Source of the DNA: Chitinilyticum aquatile DSM 21506
Lineage (GTDB): Bacteria > Pseudomonadota > Gammaproteobacteria > Burkholderiales > Chitinibacteraceae
Reading direction: 5' to 3'
Assembly (NCBI RefSeq): GCF_000430805.1
Contig: NZ_AUMS01000001.1
Coordinates: 310,001-374,000 of the forward strand
DNA length: 64,000 bases
Position numbers and translations under genes: made by a program. Below are positions 55,295 to 64,000 of the stretch, in pieces. Below the pieces are notes generated by a model. It had not been told where the DNA came from and ran no database searches. It worked only from the letters and a program-made list of their open reading frames with translations. Numbering within the stretch: the stretch's first letter is position 1; each line of letters starts with the position of its first letter.

Positions 55295-56194
55295 TCAGCC
55301 GGCAGATGCTGGAGCAGTGAGTCGAAGCAAACCGGCCAGCAGCACTCCGGCAGCAGCAACAAGCATTACCCCCGCAAGCCCTGCCAGAGCGGTCGAGAGG
55401 CTGGAATCACCCAGCGCTGGCACGGCATAGTCGGCCAGCGGTGCGACAAACAGCGGAGCACCTTCTTTCAGGAAGCCGTATTGCTGAGCGACCCATTCCA
55501 GCCCGTCAGGATGACTGCTGGCAAAGGGGCTGAGCAGCGCAGCGATCAGCAATGCGCCCAGAAGCGGGACCGCTACATCCATTCGGCCGGACGTGCTGCG
55601 CGCACTACTCAGTGCAGTAACCAGAACCAGCGTAATCAGGGCTTCGCCCACACCAATGAGGGCATGTACACCCAGCATCGCCGGCAGCACCTTGCCGGCA
55701 GTGATGGTGCCGCTGAATGCGAGTTCGATGCTGCAGGCCGAGGCTGCCAGCATGATCGAAGTCCAGCCTGCCAGCAGCAGCGCAAGGCTACGGTGCATGC
55801 CGCGCTGCGCCAGATATCTGTTCAGCAAGCCGCCCGCGCCTGCGCCGAGCAGGGCCATGTTGAATACATTGGCGCCCAGCACAAGCAGACCGCCGTCGGC
55901 AAACACCAGGGACTGCACCGTCACGACCAGCGCCAGCGCCAGCACGCCAAAGGGTACACCCAGGAGTGCCGCGGCCAGTACGCCACCGAGCAAGTGGCCC
56001 GATGTTCCATCCTGCACAGGGAAGTTGATCATCTGCGCGGCAAAAATCAGGGCAGAAACCGCCGCAAAGCGCAGTGCTCCCGGCTTGTCGGGCGACCTCA
56101 TCGCTGCACGGCTAGCCAGCGCGATGCCTGCGACAGCGACGGTCGCACTGAGGGGACAGATGCTGCCATTAAGCATTTCATTTGGAATGTGCAT
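55295..56194 (-). CDS. Energy-coupling-factor nickel/cobalt importer, CbiM/NikM-type with PDGLE part
   Basis: 299 residues. N-terminus MHIPNEMLNG (family: MHIPDGFL, with His2 a metal ligand), then DGTSGHLLGGVLAAALLG, which gives another metal-binding His. About eight membrane helices. Near residue 230 is SSHPDGLEWVAQQYGF, the PDGLE mark of the CbiN/NikN domain, here fused. ATPase and T-component genes (cbiO, cbiQ) are not next to it. It is divergent from a [NiFe] hydrogenase operon, so nickel is the likely substrate (inference). Confidence 0.87.
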   Translation of the reverse strand: MHIPNEMLNGSICPLSATVAVAGIALASRAAMRSPDKPGALRFAAVSALIFAAQMINFPVQDGTSGHLLGGVLAAALLGVPFGVLALALVVTVQSLVFADGGLLVLGANVFNMALLGAGAGGLLNRYLAQRGMHRSLALLLAGWTSIMLAASACSIELAFSGTITAGKVLPAMLGVHALIGVGEALITLVLVTALSSARSTSGRMDVAVPLLGALLIAALLSPFASSHPDGLEWVAQQYGFLKEGAPLFVAPLADYAVPALGDSSLSTALAGLAGVMLVAAAGVLLAGLLRLTAPASAG

Positions 56195-56480: not shown

Positions 56481-56836
56481 CCTCTGGTTTAGCAGAGGTG
56501 TATCAATTCCGCGACGCTTTTCCTGCTGCGCAACATCTTGATCAATTGGCATTTTTCAGGAGTTGATTCATGCGGGGGAATCAGGAAAAGCGGCGCGTCA
56601 ACGCTTGCATGCGCCGCTGCATTGCAACAGAAGGGGCTGCCTGGCCGGTCGATACCGGTGCATCCCATCAGTCTGCATTTGCGCCCGCACTCTCCAGCCT
56701 GGAGTTCCTGCCCGGAGTCTTCCGGGCGGCCACCACTTCATTCATCTGGCTGCGCCGATCAATCGGCATCCGCTGCGATGCACTCACCAAAAACAATTCC
56801 GAAGGCGGCGATTTTTCGTCCGCCTTTTTTTATTTC
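56481..56836 (+). promoter_or_regulatory. Structured leader with hairpin ladder and intrinsic terminator before the hydrogenase operon
   Basis: Successive perfect or near-perfect hairpins: CCTCTG/CAGAGG (56481-56498), AGCGGCGC/GCGCCGCT (56589-56618), GCCCGGA/TCCGGGC (56710-56727), GCCGAT/ATCGGC (56753-56766). The final one is AAGGCGGCGA-TTTT-TCGTCCGCCTT (56802-56827) with one bulged base, followed by TTTTTTTATTT. Only about 40 bases remain to the first operon ATG, with no obvious promoter there. This looks like a transcription attenuator or riboswitch, perhaps Moco- or metal-responsive (inference). A frame at 56570-56845 with an AGGAG may be a leader peptide but runs through the terminator. 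Confidence 0.55.
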
Positions 56837-56874: not shown

Positions 56875-58785
56875 ATGCAACTCATGAACTATAAGACGTG
56901 CGTGTGCAATCTATGCGGCACAGGGTGCGGACAGTTTCTGAAGACGGATGGCAGGCAAGTCTTCGGCGTGGCTCCGCTCATCGCTCACCCGGTCAGCAAG
57001 GGCAAGCTCTGCATTCGCGGCTGGCATGCCAACGAACTGCTGAACACGAACGAACGGATCACGCAGCCAATGATCCGCGAGAACGGCCAGCTGCGACCGG
57101 CAAGTTATGAAGAAGCGATCGCCCTTGTTGCCAGCCGAATGCAGCAATTTGATGGCGCAAAGGGTGAGATCGGCATTCTCGCCTCGGCACGTTCTTCCAA
57201 TGAAGATGGCTACACGCTGGGGCGGCTGGCGCATGAAGTGTTCGGCACCCGCCTGCAGGGCATCGGTGCCGAAGCCGGCCACCGCAAGAGCATGGCATCA
57301 CTCGAGCATGCATTCGGTTACCCCGGCGCTCATGGCAGCCTGACCAGCATCGACCATGCTGACTATATCCTGGTGGTCGGCACCGACATCACGCGGCAAA
57401 ACCCGATCATCGGCGGCAATATCCACGCGGCCCAGCGCCGTGGCGCGCGTGTGGTGACGCTATCAAGCTCACGCACGCAGATTGCCAAGCTCTCGACCAA
57501 ACACTTCCAGCAAAAGCCTGGCACCAAGGGACTGCTGGTCAATGCGCTGGCCAAGGCGCTGCTGGGTATCCGCACCGCCAATCGCGAGCGCAAGGCCAAC
57601 ATCGACCAGATGCCGGGTTACTCCGACTACGTCGCCTCGCTGCGCAGCATTTCGTCGGTGGCACTGGAGCGTGCCAGCGGCATCCGCTACGAGGAAATCG
57701 AGGAAGAAGCCAAATATCTGGAACAGGCCAAATCCATTGTCATCCTGTTCTCCAGCGGCATTTCCGGGCTGGATCGCCCGACAATTGACGCCATCACCAA
57801 TCTGGCTCTGCTGACCGATCGCATGGACCACGAGCATTCCGCCGTCATTCCGGTGGCCGGCATCAGCAATCTGCAGGGCAGCTTCGACATGGGCGTGTCC
57901 GGCGAGCCCGGCAACAGCGTTTTCAAGGCGCTCGCCAGCCCCGATTCAGCCATTCGCGCGCTGTTCGTGATCGACCACGATGACGGCATCATCCGCGACA
58001 GGGAACGCATCGCCAGCCTGGATTTCGTCGTGTATTCCTGTGCGTACAAGAGCGCCTTCATGGATCTGGCGCATGTGGTCTTCCCGCTGCCGGCGTTCAA
58101 TGAAACCGACGGCACCTACACCGCCTCGGACCGCCGCGTACAGATTACCCGCAAGAATGTCGACAACCCGCATAAGGTGCTGCCTGGCTGGGCGCTCTTC
58201 CAGAAAATCGCCGCTGCTGCAGGGCATCAATGGGGGTATGCAAATGCAGCCGATGTCTTTATTGAGCTGGCAAACAATACCCCTGGTTATGCTGGCTTGA
58301 GCCATCAGCAGCTCAGCCAGGGTTTCGGTCAGCACTGGAATCCCCAAGCCTTTCCGAATTCGCGCAGGCGCAAATTTAACGCGATCAACATCGAATACTG
58401 GGAATCACCGACGACCCCCGAATTCCCCTTCGCGCTGATGATCGGCAAGGCGCAGCACTACTGGCACCAGAACAACCTGATGCGCAAGACGATCGTGCCG
58501 CGCCGCGAGTATGACCAGACGTTGTGGCTCTACCCGCACGGCTATATCGAGATTTCGCCCGACGACGCCACGCGCCTGAAAGTAAAGGACAAGTGGCTGG
58601 TCAATGTGCGCTCCAGCATCGGCACGCACATGAAGATCGCCGTGAAGATCTCGCCCGATGTACAGAGCGGTACCGCCTACATCCCCTACTTCATCAAGAA
58701 CATGATTTCCGACTTCCTGCTGCCGTATGAAAACGCCTATGCAGCTGGCGAGGAAAGCGTGATTCCGATCCAGATCCAAGAATAA
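56875..58785 (+). CDS. Formate-dehydrogenase-like/NuoG-like subunit lacking the catalytic Cys/Sec
   Basis: 636 residues (start at 56875; the ATG at 56884 is an alternative). The N-terminal [4Fe-4S] domain has Cys 11, 14, 18 and 46 (CNLCGTGCG ... KLCIRG). The molybdopterin-oxidoreductase body follows, with NEDGYTLGRLAHEVFG and LVVGTDITRQNP; the C-terminal dinucleotide-binding domain has WHQNNLMRKTI and ISPDDATRLKVKD. Where FdhF has Sec/Cys-His (near 140), this has EAGHRKS: Gly135-His136. The redox ligand is missing but the rest is kept. It probably conducts electrons as NuoG does, or binds a cofactor without formate oxidation. First gene of the operon. Confidence 0.87.
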   Translation: MQLMNYKTCVCNLCGTGCGQFLKTDGRQVFGVAPLIAHPVSKGKLCIRGWHANELLNTNERITQPMIRENGQLRPASYEEAIALVASRMQQFDGAKGEIGILASARSSNEDGYTLGRLAHEVFGTRLQGIGAEAGHRKSMASLEHAFGYPGAHGSLTSIDHADYILVVGTDITRQNPIIGGNIHAAQRRGARVVTLSSSRTQIAKLSTKHFQQKPGTKGLLVNALAKALLGIRTANRERKANIDQMPGYSDYVASLRSISSVALERASGIRYEEIEEEAKYLEQAKSIVILFSSGISGLDRPTIDAITNLALLTDRMDHEHSAVIPVAGISNLQGSFDMGVSGEPGNSVFKALASPDSAIRALFVIDHDDGIIRDRERIASLDFVVYSCAYKSAFMDLAHVVFPLPAFNETDGTYTASDRRVQITRKNVDNPHKVLPGWALFQKIAAAAGHQWGYANAADVFIELANNTPGYAGLSHQQLSQGFGQHWNPQAFPNSRRRKFNAINIEYWESPTTPEFPFALMIGKAQHYWHQNNLMRKTIVPRREYDQTLWLYPHGYIEISPDDATRLKVKDKWLVNVRSSIGTHMKIAVKISPDVQSGTAYIPYFIKNMISDFLLPYENAYAAGEESVIPIQIQE

Positions 58786-58965
58786 CGGGGGCATCAGACG
58801 CGATGGCGACAACTCCAGTGGCAGCAAGCGCCAGGCCTAGCCTGCCGCAACACGGCTGCATGCCAATCAACGGCTTTTTGTTTGCAATGCATTTTTCCCG
58901 GCCGAGCCGGGAAAAACGGAACGCAGACTGTCTTTTGACAGCCTGCTAAGGCGAGGAACCTCTCC
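58786..58965 (+). promoter_or_regulatory. Two hairpins between the first and second operon genes
   Basis: TTTTTCCCGGC and GCCGGGAAAAA form an 11-bp perfect stem around CGA (58892-58916). GCAGACTGTC and GACAGCCTGC follow (58923-58946) around TTTT. The first is not followed by a T run on the forward strand, so it looks like an mRNA processing or stability element more than a terminator. The second gene's GAGGAA lies just beyond. Confidence 0.5.
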
Positions 58966-60036
58966 ATGTCCATGTACATCCTGTCCTCAGACGAAATCAG
59001 CCAGCTGGTCACCGAACTGCAGGCAAGCTATGCCGTCTACGGCCCGCAGGTCGAGCCGCAGACCCGGCAGGTTTTCTTTGACCTGATCAACGATGCGACT
59101 GCGCTTGATCTCGAAGCGCCGATTCCATCGATGCCGGTCAAGGAAATCCTGTTCCCGCAGATGGAACGCATCCTGAAATACAAGTACGACGCCGAAACAC
59201 AGAGCGTCGAGATGGCCCGGCAGTATTTCGAACAGCCCAAAGTGCTGTTCGGCTTGCGGCCATGCGATCTGGCCGGCATCCAGGCGCTCGACCGCTTTTT
59301 CCTTGGCCAGGAATTCGTCGACGACGTCTACCTCACCCATCGTCGCCAGTGCCTGCTGATCAGCAATACCTGTCTGCATCCCTTCCCGCAGTGCTTCTGC
59401 GTCTGTACGCACTCGGGGCCGGATGCCGATGAAGGCTTCGATCTTGACCTGACCAAACTGGCAGACGGTTACCTGGTGAAAGTAGGCAGCGAAAAAGGCC
59501 GGGCACTGGCCGACGCCCACAACTGGACGCCAGCCAAGCCACAACAGCTGAGCGAACAGAAAGCGGTCGTCGACAAGTGCATCGACCTGTTCCCGGACAT
59601 GGCCACCGACAACAAGGCCTGGGTCTCACGCGTGATGAACCGCATCACCACCGGCTTCATCAAAAGCGAAACCTGGGAATACATCGGCGACCAGTGTCTC
59701 GAATGCGGTGCCTGTTCCTTCGTTTGTCCGACCTGTAGCTGCTTCAACATCGAAGACGCCCAGACGGAATGCGGCGAATGCGAGCGTCTGCGCACGCGCG
59801 ACTCCTGTTCCTTCGAAGGCTATGCCCGCATGGCCGGTGACCACAACCCGCGCCAGCCAGTGGAAGACCGTCGCAACAAGCGTTTCTTCTGCAAGTTGTC
59901 CTATTCCCAGTCGAAAAAATACCTGCGCCCCGGCTGCGTCGGCTGCGGCCGCTGCCAGTGGGTCTGCCCAGGCGACATCGGCCTGCCGAACGTCGTGCAG
60001 TACATCCGCAGAGAGATCACCGGAGGAGAAGCCTGA
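58966..60036 (+). CDS. Sulfhydrogenase-type beta subunit, [4Fe-4S] electron carrier
   Basis: 356 residues, GAGGAA 7 bases before the ATG at 58966. The N-terminal half is the HydB/AsrA-type domain with LFGLRPCDLAGIQALDRFFLG. Two 4Fe-4S motifs follow: CLECGACSFVCPTC near 244 and CVGCGRCQWVCP near 324. In Pyrococcus sulfhydrogenases and in anaerobic sulfite reductase the equivalent subunit carries electrons between the flavin subunit and the catalytic one. It overlaps the next gene by one base (TGATG). Confidence 0.88.
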   Translation: MSMYILSSDEISQLVTELQASYAVYGPQVEPQTRQVFFDLINDATALDLEAPIPSMPVKEILFPQMERILKYKYDAETQSVEMARQYFEQPKVLFGLRPCDLAGIQALDRFFLGQEFVDDVYLTHRRQCLLISNTCLHPFPQCFCVCTHSGPDADEGFDLDLTKLADGYLVKVGSEKGRALADAHNWTPAKPQQLSEQKAVVDKCIDLFPDMATDNKAWVSRVMNRITTGFIKSETWEYIGDQCLECGACSFVCPTCSCFNIEDAQTECGECERLRTRDSCSFEGYARMAGDHNPRQPVEDRRNKRFFCKLSYSQSKKYLRPGCVGCGRCQWVCPGDIGLPNVVQYIRREITGGEA

Positions 60037-60914
60037 TGTCCAATTGTCACGGCAATCACGAGCACGGCAACTGCAAGACCACCGGCCTGTGCCCGATTGT
60101 GACCTTCCCCGAAGTGGTGAACATTGACGAGATTCGCGATGAAATCCCCGAGGTGAAGACCTTCTACCTGTCCTTTCCCAACAAGGACGTCGAGCGCGAA
60201 TTCCGCATCAGATCGGGGCAGTTCATCATGTGCACCGTATTTGGTGCCGGGGAATTTGCAGTTTCGCTGCCGCCCAGCCCTGAAAACGACCGTTTCCACA
60301 TCTCGGTACGCGCTGTAGGCAAGGTCACCCACGCGCTGCATGCCCTCAAGCCCGGCGACAAGCTCGGCGTGCGCGGCCCGTTTGGCAACGGCTTCCCCTT
60401 TGACGAGATCAAGGGCAAGAACATCATCTACGTGGCCGGCGGTATCGGCCTGATTCCGCTCCGAAGCTCCATCGTGCATGCGCTGCAGCACCGCGAAGAC
60501 TTCGGCCGCATCATCCTCTTGTACGGTGCTCGCAGCAGCAAGGACCTGATGTACCAGCCGGACATCAAGGTGTGGCAGGAAAACGCCGGCTTCGAGACCT
60601 TCATCACCATCGACCGCGCAGAAGAAGGCTGGCATGGCGAAACAGGCTATGTGAACCAGCTGATCGAAAAAGCCAAGGTGCCGGTCGACAATAGCGTGGC
60701 CTTCGTCTGCGGCCCGCCGGTCATGTTCAACAGCGTGATCGGTGAATTCCTGAAGCGCGGCATGAGCGAGGACGCGATCATCTCGACACTGGAGCGGCAG
60801 ATGAAATGCGGCATCGGCAAATGCCAGCACTGCGCGGTGGGGAGAACACTCGTCTGTACTGACGGGCCCGTTTACACCTATCGGCAGATCAAGACACTGG
60901 GCGAACAGATATGA
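60036..60914 (+). CDS. Sulfhydrogenase-type gamma subunit, FAD/NAD(P)-binding reductase
   Basis: 292 residues from MSNCHGNHEHGNCKTTGLCP; the ATG at 60036 overlaps the previous stop and has GGAGGAG upstream. Flavin domain (about 20-120) with HISVRAVGKVTHALHALKPG; nucleotide domain with VAGGIGLIPLRSS near 145; C-terminal [2Fe-2S] motif CGIGKCQHC ... C as in HydG/PyrK. The first 19 residues are unusually rich in Cys and His (Cys4, His5, His8, His10, Cys13, Cys19) and may bind a metal. It should pass electrons between NAD(P)(H) and the beta subunit. Confidence 0.9.
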   Translation: MSNCHGNHEHGNCKTTGLCPIVTFPEVVNIDEIRDEIPEVKTFYLSFPNKDVEREFRIRSGQFIMCTVFGAGEFAVSLPPSPENDRFHISVRAVGKVTHALHALKPGDKLGVRGPFGNGFPFDEIKGKNIIYVAGGIGLIPLRSSIVHALQHREDFGRIILLYGARSSKDLMYQPDIKVWQENAGFETFITIDRAEEGWHGETGYVNQLIEKAKVPVDNSVAFVCGPPVMFNSVIGEFLKRGMSEDAIISTLERQMKCGIGKCQHCAVGRTLVCTDGPVYTYRQIKTLGEQI

Positions 60915-61399
60915 GCTTCGCTTCTGAACTTGCGGATATTCTCGCCACCCCCACCAGCATCGTCGGCATCGGCAATGCCCTGCGCAGCGATGATGCCGTC
61001 GGCTGTTACATCGCCGAACGGCTGGAGGCCTCGCTGCCTGCACACAGCCCCCACCGGGTGATCAACGCCGAGGATGTGATCGAGAACCATGTTTTCCGCC
61101 TCGCCGACAGCGCGCCTGAGCACGTGCTGCTCATCGACGCCATTCAGGGCAGCGGCCAGGCTCCGGGTTCGCTGGTGCTCGGCCGGCTGGCCGAGCTTGA
61201 AACCGGTGGTGGCTATTCAACCCACAAACTGGCGCTGACCATGGCCGGCGATTTGCTTGAGCGTCACGGCAAGCAGGTTTACCTGCTCGGCGTAGCCGCT
61301 GAGAACATCGATTTCGGGATGAGCATGAGCAAGGAAATACAGACCAGTGCCGACGCGGTGATCGATATGCTCGCCGGGCATGCAGGAAGGAGTCATTAA
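60911..61399 (+). CDS. [NiFe] hydrogenase maturation protease
   Basis: 162 residues. The family motif GIGNALRSDDAVG lies at 20-32, then LIDAIQGSG and GGGYSTHKLALTMAGDLL. The nickel-sensing Glu/Asp and His positions of HycI/HyaD proteins appear kept. It would cut the C-terminal tail of the large subunit after nickel insertion. It overlaps the gamma subunit by four bases and precedes the membrane gene by two, so it is in the operon. Confidence 0.93.
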   Translation: MSFASELADILATPTSIVGIGNALRSDDAVGCYIAERLEASLPAHSPHRVINAEDVIENHVFRLADSAPEHVLLIDAIQGSGQAPGSLVLGRLAELETGGGYSTHKLALTMAGDLLERHGKQVYLLGVAAENIDFGMSMSKEIQTSADAVIDMLAGHAGRSH

Positions 61400-61401
61400 A
61401 A

Positions 61402-63279
61402 ATGGACCACAGTATCTACACCAGCCTGCAGACCGGCATCCTGCTGCTGCTGGCCTCGGCGCTCATCACGCCCCTGCTGGCGGGCAAGCGCAAATGGGCG
61501 GGCAGCCTGAATTTCCTCGCCACACTTGCCGCCGCAGTCGTTTTCACCGGCATTGCCGTCAAGGTACTCGGCGGCAGTGCGGCACCGGCGACGTTTGACC
61601 TGCACGTGGATCTGGTATGGGGCAGCCTGGCAATCCCGCTGATGATTGACGGTTTTTCGGCTGTATTCATGGTGCTGATTTCATCCGTCGCTGCGGTGAC
61701 CGCGTTCTACTGCATCGATTACATGGAGATGGATCACTATCGCCATTACAGCCTGCGCAGCTTCTTCTTCTGCTATCCGGTCTTCATCGCCGGCATGATC
61801 GCGCTGGTGACGGTTGATGACCTTACCACCGGCTTTACGATTGCGTGGCAGATGATGACCATCGCGTCCTTCTTCCTGATCCGTTTCGATTACAGGGATG
61901 AAGTGATTGTCCGCAGCGCGAACAAATACCTGATCCTGATGGAACTCGCCTGGGCTGCGGTGCTGGCCGCGGGGCTGATGCTGCCGGGCTGTACCTGGGG
62001 GACGCCGCTGCACCAGATTGCGGAGCATCTGGGCATGGCCGATGCAGGCCTGCGCACACTGGTACTCACGCTCACGCTGCTGGGCTTCGGCATGAAGGCC
62101 GGTATGTTCCCACTGGGCCAGCTCTGGCTGCCTGATGCCCACTCGGTTGCTCCCTCGCCGATCAGTGCCCTGCTGTCAGGTGTGATGCTCAAAACCGGCA
62201 TCTACGGCATGATCCGCACGCTGTTCTGGATGATGCCCGACACCCTGCCGGCACAGGAAGTGCAGTACTGGGGGCTGGTGGTTGCGATCATTGGCGTGGT
62301 CACACTCTTCATCGGGACATCCCAGTCACTCAAGCAGGTCGATGCCAAGCGCCTGAATGCCTACAGCTCGATCGGCCAGATCGGCTACATCATTCTGGCT
62401 GTCGGTGCTGCGCGCTACTACCTCGGCGCCAATGCCGCACTGCATGCGCTGGCACTGCTGGCCATCCTCGGTGCCTTCCTGCATGTGCTCAATCACGCCA
62501 TCTTCAAGAGCCTGCTGTTCCTCTGCGTAGGCAGCGTGCAGTTCACTACCGGCACCAAGGACCTGGACAAGCTGGGCGGTCTTTTCGCGCTGATGCCCGT
62601 CACTGCCATCATTGCCGGCATTGCCGCGATAGCAGTCTCCGGCGTGCCGGCCTTCTCGGGCTTCACCAGCAAGTGGGCCATCGTCGGCTCGACGCTGCTC
62701 TCCGGCAAAACCGCCGGCATCTTCGTGATCTTCGGCGTGATTGCACTGGTGACCAGCGCGATGACACTGGCCACCTACGTGAAACTCTACGGCATGACCT
62801 TTACCTCGGTCGGCGTCGAGTGGAACGACAAGAACAATGTGCACGAAGTCAGCAAGGTGATGCTGGCGCCCAAGCTGGTACTGGCGGCCGTCTGCCTGGT
62901 GCAGGGCTTCTTCCCCTGGCTTTTCGTCGCACTGTTCGGTCGCGTGCTCGCCACTTCGGAAGGCGTGCTGACGCAGACACTGGGGACACCCGAAGTGCTC
63001 GCTTCGCTGTCGCAAAACTATGCCGGCGTGAGCTTTGCTGCTGCCAATGGGTCACCTGTCGCCTTCTCCCTGCCGCTGGTGATGATCGCCATGCTGGTGG
63101 TGGCGCTGCTCGCCGCACTGTGGCTGCGCCGCGCCGGTGGCGCAGAAGAGCGCACCGCACCCGTGTGGCTGTGCGGCTACCAGACGCTGAACAATGCCAA
63201 CCGTTACCTAAGCAGTCACATCTTCGACGCCTTCAAGAAGTTCATGAAATGGACTGGCGGCAATGTGCGCGGCGCCTGA
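61402..63279 (+). CDS. NuoL/HyfB-type ion-translocating membrane subunit
   Basis: 625 residues with AAGGAG before the ATG. About 14-16 membrane helices. Complex-I antiporter-like segments are clear: GFGMKAGMFPLGQLWLPDAH near 230-250 (conserved Lys and Pro), SAVSLLS-type helix and KQVDAKRLNAYSSIGQIGYI near 315-335, and LNHAIFKSLLFLCVGSV. It probably pumps protons or sodium in a group 4 hydrogenase. The long C-terminal part (WNDKNNVHEVSKVMLAPK...) is hydrogenase-4 subunit B-like. Confidence 0.9.
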   Translation: MDHSIYTSLQTGILLLLASALITPLLAGKRKWAGSLNFLATLAAAVVFTGIAVKVLGGSAAPATFDLHVDLVWGSLAIPLMIDGFSAVFMVLISSVAAVTAFYCIDYMEMDHYRHYSLRSFFFCYPVFIAGMIALVTVDDLTTGFTIAWQMMTIASFFLIRFDYRDEVIVRSANKYLILMELAWAAVLAAGLMLPGCTWGTPLHQIAEHLGMADAGLRTLVLTLTLLGFGMKAGMFPLGQLWLPDAHSVAPSPISALLSGVMLKTGIYGMIRTLFWMMPDTLPAQEVQYWGLVVAIIGVVTLFIGTSQSLKQVDAKRLNAYSSIGQIGYIILAVGAARYYLGANAALHALALLAILGAFLHVLNHAIFKSLLFLCVGSVQFTTGTKDLDKLGGLFALMPVTAIIAGIAAIAVSGVPAFSGFTSKWAIVGSTLLSGKTAGIFVIFGVIALVTSAMTLATYVKLYGMTFTSVGVEWNDKNNVHEVSKVMLAPKLVLAAVCLVQGFFPWLFVALFGRVLATSEGVLTQTLGTPEVLASLSQNYAGVSFAAANGSPVAFSLPLVMIAMLVVALLAALWLRRAGGAEERTAPVWLCGYQTLNNANRYLSSHIFDAFKKFMKWTGGNVRGA

Positions 63280-63297
63280 TTTTCCGGAGTTACCACC

Positions 63298-64000
63298 ATG
63301 TCGATAAGAAAAGAACTGGAAGCCAAACTGATCGCCCGCCTGCGTGACGATGTGGTGTGCGTCGAGAAAACTGACGAACGCACCATCTACATCGATGTCA
63401 AGCGCGCCGGCTTTCGCGAAGCAAGCCAGATCATCACCGCCTCCGGCGCCCGCTACCTGTGCAGCATCGGCTATGACAACATCGAGCGCGACGGCACGCT
63501 GGCGATGGTGCACACCTATGCACTGGACGACAGCAACCGCTTTGTCTGCTGCCGCGCCTCGGCCCCCGTTGATGATCCGGTGCTCGAATCCATCACGCCC
63601 GACCTGCCGTCTGCCGGCTGGTCGGAGCGCGAAGTCACCGACCTGCTGGGGCTGCGCTTTGCCGGTCACCCGAAGCCGAAAAAGCTGGTACTGGCGGACG
63701 ACTGGCCCGAAGGCATCTACCCGCTCCGAAAGGAAGTACCGCACGATTTCGTGCCGCAAGGTGCCGAAGACGTCGCCTACCAGCTCGACGAAGCACCACC
63801 GGGAACCAAGATTGTTCCGGTCGGGCCATTTCACCCCAGCCTGCACGAGCCCGAGCACTTTGCCGTGTATGTCGATGGTGAAACCATCAAGGGCTGTGAC
63901 TACCGCGGCTTCATGACGCACCGCGGCATCGAAAAACTGTGCCAGACGCAGGTCAGCTACAACGAAGTTCCCTTCATTGCCGAGCGCATCTGCGGCATCT
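63298..64000 (+). CDS. [NiFe] hydrogenase large subunit, HycE/HyfG type (3' partial)
   Basis: Frame from the ATG at 63298 (CCGGAG 9 bases before) to the window edge, 234 residues. The first 150 are the NuoC-like domain (MSIRKELEAKLIARLRDDVV ... EREVTDLLGLRFAGHPKPKK ... GIYPLRKEVP). Then comes the large-subunit start: VGPFHPSLHEPEHFAVYVDG, THRGIEKLCQ and ERICGI, the first half of the L1 nickel motif RxCGxC, cut at the last base. This makes it a group 4 enzyme. The small subunit and remaining membrane parts should lie beyond the right edge. Confidence 0.9.
   Translation, partial: MSIRKELEAKLIARLRDDVVCVEKTDERTIYIDVKRAGFREASQIITASGARYLCSIGYDNIERDGTLAMVHTYALDDSNRFVCCRASAPVDDPVLESITPDLPSAGWSEREVTDLLGLRFAGHPKPKKLVLADDWPEGIYPLRKEVPHDFVPQGAEDVAYQLDEAPPGTKIVPVGPFHPSLHEPEHFAVYVDGETIKGCDYRGFMTHRGIEKLCQTQVSYNEVPFIAERICGI

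Follow-up and report, generated by a model that had tools for sequence, protein, structure and literature searches.

We describe a ten-gene operon that begins in a 64,000-nucleotide window (G000:C1:310001-374000) of the complete-looking 3.69 Mb genome of Chitinilyticum aquatile DSM 21506, and that joins a group 4 membrane [NiFe]-hydrogenase to a HydB/HydG-type module for NAD(P)H and to a relative of formate dehydrogenase (FDH). We estimate at roughly 0.6 the probability that its products form a membrane-anchored hydrogenase exchanging electrons with NAD(P)(H) through the HydB/HydG-like arm (HydBG) and an FDH relic that stands where NuoG stands in complex I. The gene set and its order, the conserved cofactor residues, the loss of FDH residues and the clade structure are observed; that the products form a single complex, that NAD(P)H is its partner, which way electrons flow and whether ions are coupled are inferences. 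The original prediction, made from the window alone, had proposed the union of a group 4 hydrogenase and a HydB/HydG-type NAD(P)H module in one operon; it is supported by a gene order conserved across phyla, and further by intact iron-sulfur cysteines, a Rex-type gene beside five of the operons and the loss of the FDH active site.

Gene content and conservation of the operon

Six of the ten genes lie head to tail on the plus strand from position 56875, at the place and in the order that had been predicted and with family matches far beyond chance, and the rest lie beyond the right end of the window (Table 1). The products are, in order, an FdhF-like, a HydB-like and a HydG-like subunit, the maturation protease HycI, HyfB/NuoL-like, HycE-like, NuoH-like, NuoI/HyfH-like and NuoB/HycG-like subunits and a receiver protein. 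Reading rightward past 64000 yielded the NuoB- and NuoH-like genes that had been anticipated there, together with the NuoI-like and receiver genes, and no standard formate hydrogenlyase downstream of the large subunit. The large subunit, cut by the window end, retains its C-terminal nickel cysteines once the adjoining sequence is added: the complete HycE-like protein carries both nickel-cysteine motifs (RICGICGSVH and DPCFSCTDR), and equivalent CxxC pairs occur in every complete relative. Both NiFe CxxC pairs and the NuoB/NuoH/NuoI/NuoL-M-N-like partners place the enzyme among the group 4 [NiFe]-hydrogenases.

A HycE search covering one genome per species returned 35 loci, and in 26 of them the genes and their order were identical on every contig that was long enough (the FdhF-like reading frame is broken in one locus, L010). 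These 26 loci span Chitinibacteraceae, Rhodocyclaceae, a metagenome-assembled genome of Oligoflexia, Spirochaetes, Acidobacteria and Aminicenantes, so that the neighbourhood search recovered the same order across several phyla. Fifteen further genomes from two phyla were picked by large-subunit identity of at least 60%, and not by neighbourhood; in all 15, within the limits of the contigs, the FdhF-like, HydB-like and HydG-like genes lie directly 5' of the hydrogenase genes and the receiver gene lies 3' (tblastn gave no HycI match in two of them). In the host family, 8 of 43 genomes had a large subunit of at least 60% identity; the figures were 1 of 369 for genomes sampled from the host class, about 14 of 396 for the Saccharicenans phylum and 32 of 393 for the Spirochaete phylum. 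The same input module is carried by two outer relatives, L095 (52% large-subunit identity) and L096 (48%), and by a partial contig, L033.

By large subunit, the closest named relatives are Chitinibacteraceae, among them Chitiniphilus eburneus and Deefgea chitinilytica (93% identity). The 27 large subunits of the window and the 26 loci formed one clade with a long stem (99/100 support) outside E. coli HycE and HyfG. In a second tree the same clade was recovered with 100/100 support and its nearest outgroup was a Thermococcus large subunit (L029; 95/92), although the order of outgroups is provisional because of the long branches in the trees. The Thermococcus operon includes genes that we read from their sequences as CooS-, CooF- and CooC-like.

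The proposed NAD(P)H arm

Both proteins have counterparts in Pyrococcus sulfhydrogenase I: the HydB-like protein matches its beta subunit (E=7e-38) and the HydG-like protein its gamma subunit (E=1e-54). Both fall below their NCBIfam cutoffs; the HydB-like protein scores 167 bits with ShyB (E=5e-49), where the cutoff is 690. Their cofactor residues are intact: 17 cysteines of the HydB-like protein and the [2Fe-2S] cysteines C259, C264, C267 and C275 of the HydG-like protein are invariant in 26 sequences, as are the cofactor cysteines across all five iron-sulfur subunits. The HydG-like protein contains the Pfam domains NAD_binding_1, FAD_binding_6 and DHODB_Fe-S_bind, and we propose that it provides the NAD(P)H site; its YGAR motif resembles that of NqrF, an NADH enzyme, and can be taken as a hint only. 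The HydB-like protein, for which the AlphaFold model was not used (mean predicted local distance difference test (pLDDT) 60), is proposed to transfer electrons between the flavin subunit and the remainder. No NuoE/NuoF-like subunit was found among the Pfam matches of the operon.

A Rex-type gene lies directly 5' of the operon in five loci (L009, L010, L012, L027 and L089); the L009 gene (L009:2605-3738) also encodes a fused receiver domain. Since Rex proteins sense NADH/NAD+, this position fits a role in balancing NADH. At the same place in L004 there is a weak 88-amino-acid match, which may be a remnant.

The FdhF-like subunit

The label "FdhF/NuoG-like" given to the first gene proved partly apt: the gene is there, but by sequence it is a homologue of FDH (TIGR01591, 308 bits, versus 120 bits for NuoG) and its active-site residues are gone. 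In an alignment that included E. coli FdhF and two Spirochaete FDHs, all 24 core members have Gly at the Sec/Cys140 position, Ala or Thr in place of Arg333 and Arg in place of Lys44; Gln335 is lost as well. Twelve of fourteen additional sequences of the clade also have Gly at the Sec/Cys140 position, and the other two have Thr and Trp; the outer relatives have His (L095), Ala (L096) or Tyr (L033, with Gly at the Arg333 position). The N-terminal [4Fe-4S] cysteines (C11, C14, C18 and C46), which would hold the only cluster of the subunit, are invariant. The predicted fold (mean pLDDT 72) is closest to that of E. coli FDH-H, with NuoG of complex I further down the list.

No canonical FDH was found in the host genome, in which the only other proteins of the superfamily are a NarG-like protein, the NuoG of the complex I operon and a YdeP-family protein. 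For Fdh-alpha, Chitinibacter and two Saccharicenans genomes gave only matches below the cutoff, of which the operon gene scored best; true FDHs are present in two Spirochaete genomes. Because the FDH residues are lost and the host has no canonical FDH, we propose that the subunit is an FDH relic acting as electron conduit or scaffold in the role of NuoG. Since no member tested retains the active-site ligand, the sole recognisable entry point for electrons is NAD(P)H.

Away from the operon, one Saccharicenans genome encodes a second NuoG-like protein (839 amino acids) followed by a reductase that resembles HydG (L077:533-3887).

Proposed electron path and energetics

In the proposed enzyme, NAD(P)H would pass hydride to the FAD of the HydG-like subunit, from which electrons would run through its [2Fe-2S] cluster and the HydB-like clusters to the single [4Fe-4S] cluster of the FdhF-derived subunit, which would fill the part of NuoG in complex I. 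They would then cross the two NuoI-like clusters and the proximal cluster of the NuoB-like subunit and, at the NiFe centre of HycE, reduce protons to H2, or the reverse. In fermenting hosts the likely net direction would be the disposal of NADH as H2. NADH and H2 are roughly level near 10-100 Pa H2, and since the reaction from NADH to H2 is downhill only at low H2, any coupled outward flow of ions would be small, or the flow would be inward. Such a complex could release H2 at low partial pressure or spend an ion gradient at higher pressure; alternatively, it could conserve a little energy while oxidising H2.

Several observations weigh against this assignment. A shared gene neighbourhood does not prove a single complex. 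Under standard conditions the step from NADH (about -320 mV) to H2 (-414 mV) is uphill by about 94 mV. Fourteen of 15 carriers have genes for synthesis of the molybdenum cofactor (Moco), so that the FdhF-like subunit might bind a cofactor after all, although several carriers also have other Moco enzymes, and no Rex gene was found in the genome of the window itself. Finally, the glutamate of transmembrane helix 5 (TM5) of the antiporter-like subunit is replaced by glutamine (Gln150) throughout the compact clade, which speaks against an ordinary proton pump.

The TM5 Glu is important for proton transport in complex I, and it is kept in E. coli HycC, HyfB and HyfF, in MbhH, in NuoL and NuoM of the host, in the Thermococcus relative and in L033 and L096, outer relatives that each have several antiporter-like subunits. 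The operon of the window has a single antiporter-like subunit, in which, of the residues used for ion pumping (TM5 Glu, TM7 Lys and TM12 Lys/Glu), both lysines (Lys232 and Lys424) are present and only the TM5 residue is missing; the lysines are invariant, as are the pair His361/His365 and the acidic residues of the NuoH-like subunit. Pumping, which had been part of the original prediction, is therefore less well supported and cannot safely be assumed; a fair statement from these residues is that ion coupling may be altered or weak.

A broader interpretation, which we advance tentatively and hold to be somewhat less than even in its chances, is that the operon represents a widespread and unrecognised class of energy-converting hydrogenases, NAD(P)H:H+ oxidoreductases that came anew to the plan of complex I: an FDH relic devoid of cofactor would replace NuoG, a sulfhydrogenase-type HydBG pair would replace NuoEF, and a modified, Gln-type ion channel would be adapted to the very small driving force from NADH to H2.

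Alternative explanations

The operon could encode a ferredoxin-linked, Mbh-like ion-pumping hydrogenase, with the FdhF-, HydB- and HydG-like proteins as a generic oxidoreductase module or as a link between ferredoxin and NAD(P)H (confurcation). The many HydB-like clusters could accept electrons from ferredoxin, and an Mbh-like role has been proposed for a similar gene set of Saganbacteria (PMC6349859). We nevertheless consider this unlikely, given that every complete operon encodes the flavin/NAD(P) subunit, that no NuoF-like subunit occurs among the Pfam matches and that the compact clade is devoid of the TM5 Glu.

It is less probable still that the chemistry between NAD(P)H and protons is the same and the membrane arm serves as an anchor only, moving no ions. 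The glutamine at TM5 and the single antiporter-like subunit would agree with it; the invariant TM7 and TM12 lysines, histidine pair and NuoH-like acidic residues are hard to explain without a role in transport.

A third possibility, to which we give little credence, is that, as in arsenite oxidase, the FdhF-like subunit binds a Mo/W-pterin with no ligand from the protein; it would then oxidise some substrate, with electrons passing to H2 and/or NAD(P). The distribution of Moco-synthesis genes, the retained FDH-like fold and conserved residues peculiar to the family, such as W530-H531-Q532, are in its favour. Against it, among 64 positions invariant in six FDH/NapA sequences, eight (44, 134, 138, 181, 301, 335, 429 and 679) are lost in 23 of 23 family members; several of these positions we take to be pterin contacts in FDH-H. 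One carrier (G420, the genome of locus L014) has the operon but no match to MoeA or MoaA, which fits a cofactor-free subunit unless the assembly is incomplete.

A formate hydrogenlyase, in which the FdhF-like subunit would oxidise formate and HydBG would add a link to NAD(P), is very improbable and was rejected, formate being disfavoured as a substrate: the profile and fold of FDH and E. coli HycE as the closest solved large subunit speak for it, but the Sec/Cys140 ligand, Arg333, Lys44 and Gln335 are lost, the host has no canonical FDH, and in several carriers the operon gene is itself the best Fdh-alpha match.

Relation to known systems

In Saganbacteria RX5A, group 4 hydrogenase genes lie beside an unclassifiable molybdopterin oxidoreductase and AsrA/AsrB genes, a set that was read as Mbh-like with plural Mrp-like subunits and cooF, in a main text without residue analysis (Matheus Carnevali et al. 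2019, PMC6349859). By this description it has the same combination of HydB/HydG-type (AsrA/AsrB) and molybdopterin proteins as the operon of the window, but several Mrp-like subunits in place of one antiporter-like subunit with Gln; the outer relatives L033 and L096 resemble it in having several antiporter-like subunits with the TM5 Glu kept. The Saganbacteria set is very likely a relative of the operon, and the gene combination is therefore not wholly new. Bifurcating modules of the HydABC type (Bfu) have also been predicted to be linked to group 4 hydrogenases (PMC9304861); these too are predicted NAD(H)-linked membrane hydrogenases, but with BfuABC (NuoF-like) modules rather than HydBG, and they are predicted to bifurcate. 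In view of these two precedents, the idea that nothing like the operon is known is less well supported. Searches of the open-licence literature for Chitinibacter, Saccharicenans and NADH-linked group 4 hydrogenases yielded nothing on the operon, and no experimental study of the Saganbacteria set or of Bfu-linked group 4 hydrogenases was found in that literature.

With E. coli Hyc/Hyf (group 4a) the operon shares a HycE-like subunit with a fused NuoC-like domain, homologues of HycD, HycF and HycG, and HycI; it differs in forming a separate clade, in an FDH-like subunit without catalytic residues and in the added NAD(P)H arm, and no ferredoxin-like linker of the HycB/HyfA type is present among its ten genes. 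The Thermococcus operon, which encodes a hydrogenase linked to CO dehydrogenase, has five similar membrane and hydrogenase subunits but a CooS/CooF-like electron input and the TM5 Glu. Sulfhydrogenase I of Pyrococcus (group 3b, 9nez) has homologous beta and gamma subunits, whereas the operon lacks HydA/HydD and its hydrogenase part belongs to group 4. With complex I it shares homologues of NuoB/C-D/H/I/L and the proposed NuoG-like subunit between the NADH arm and NuoI, but it has a NiFe site for the quinone site, HydBG instead of NuoEF and one antiporter-like subunit.

If the NAD(P)H-linked reading is correct, the operon would represent an independent, second route by which a complex-I-like enzyme was equipped with an NADH arm. 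In fermenting bacteria of several phyla the NADH pool would then be linked directly to H2 at the membrane, by an enzyme that could draw on or generate an ion gradient over a potential difference of just about 0.1 V. The operon would also be a living analogue, made from different parts, of a step proposed for the origin of complex I, the gain of an NADH arm by a hydrogenase, and a natural test of what the pair of TM5 Glu and TM7 Lys contributes to pumping.

Possible regulation and neighbouring genes

Table 1. Features of the hydrogenase operon and its upstream flank. L002 is the genome sequence continuing to the right of the window; lengths are in amino acids (aa).
Feature	Position	Strand	Length (aa)	Evidence
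FdhF-derived, proposed NuoG-like subunit (Molybdopterin/Fdh-alpha-like)	56875..58785	+	636	Family profiles, alignment, predicted fold
HydB/ShyB/AsrA-type iron-sulfur subunit	58966..60036	+	356	ShyB E=5e-49; Pyrococcus SH1 beta 9nez_B E=7e-38
HydG/ShyC/AsrB-type FAD and [2Fe-2S] subunit, putatively NAD(P)H-binding	60033..60914	+	293	PRK08345 E=3e-70; 9nez_C E=1e-54
HycI-family hydrogenase maturation protease	60911..61399	+	162	Family profile matches
HyfB/NuoL/MbhH-like antiporter subunit	61402..63279	+	625	Family profile matches, residue alignment
HycE/HyfG-like [NiFe] large subunit with fused NuoC-like domain	63298..64000 (cut by window end)	+	566	Complete at L002:7299-8999
NuoH-like subunit	L002:8996-9919 (past window)		307	Family matches
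NuoI/HyfH-like subunit	L002:9939-10481 (past window)		180	Family matches
NuoB/HycG-like subunit	L002:10485-11012 (past window)		175	Family matches
Single-domain receiver protein	L002:11028-11432 (past window)		134	Family matches
CbiM/NikM-type Co/Ni uptake transmembrane protein with PDGLE domain	55295..56194	-		Divergent, upstream; accessory
Intrinsic-terminator-like hairpin	56800..56835	+		About 40 nt 5' of first ATG

The CbiM/NikM-type transporter likely supplies nickel, and 3' of the operon the genes hypE, hypD, hypC, hypF, hypB and hypA (named from their sequences) follow on the opposite strand. Compared with shuffled versions of itself, the 411-nt leader folds more stably (z = -3.1), and its terminator-like hairpin, conserved in several Chitinibacteraceae, is possibly an attenuator; an Rfam search of the leader gave one sub-threshold match only. 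Scans of the window gave four weak matches to the Rex operator, equal to chance and none near the operon, and a scan for sigma-54 sites gave 109 weak matches against 117 expected.

The terminal receiver-only protein has a conserved ETDTAGFE motif, and its phospho-acceptor Asp is replaced by Glu in the genome of the window, other Chitinibacteraceae and Rhodocyclus purpureus, with Asp elsewhere. Sensor histidine kinases that contain Cache-3-type domains lie directly 3' of the operon in Saccharicenans (L017:14139-17169) and in a Spirochaete (L013:14274-16250), and the same Saccharicenans locus encodes a 170-aa protein without a Pfam match between a receiver gene and the FdhF-like gene (L017:3065-3577). 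The host genome has a second [NiFe]-hydrogenase, which is Hox-like (L046:6337-11909, on G000:C5) and comprises a fused HoxE/NuoF, a HoxU-like protein, the small and large subunits and a protease.

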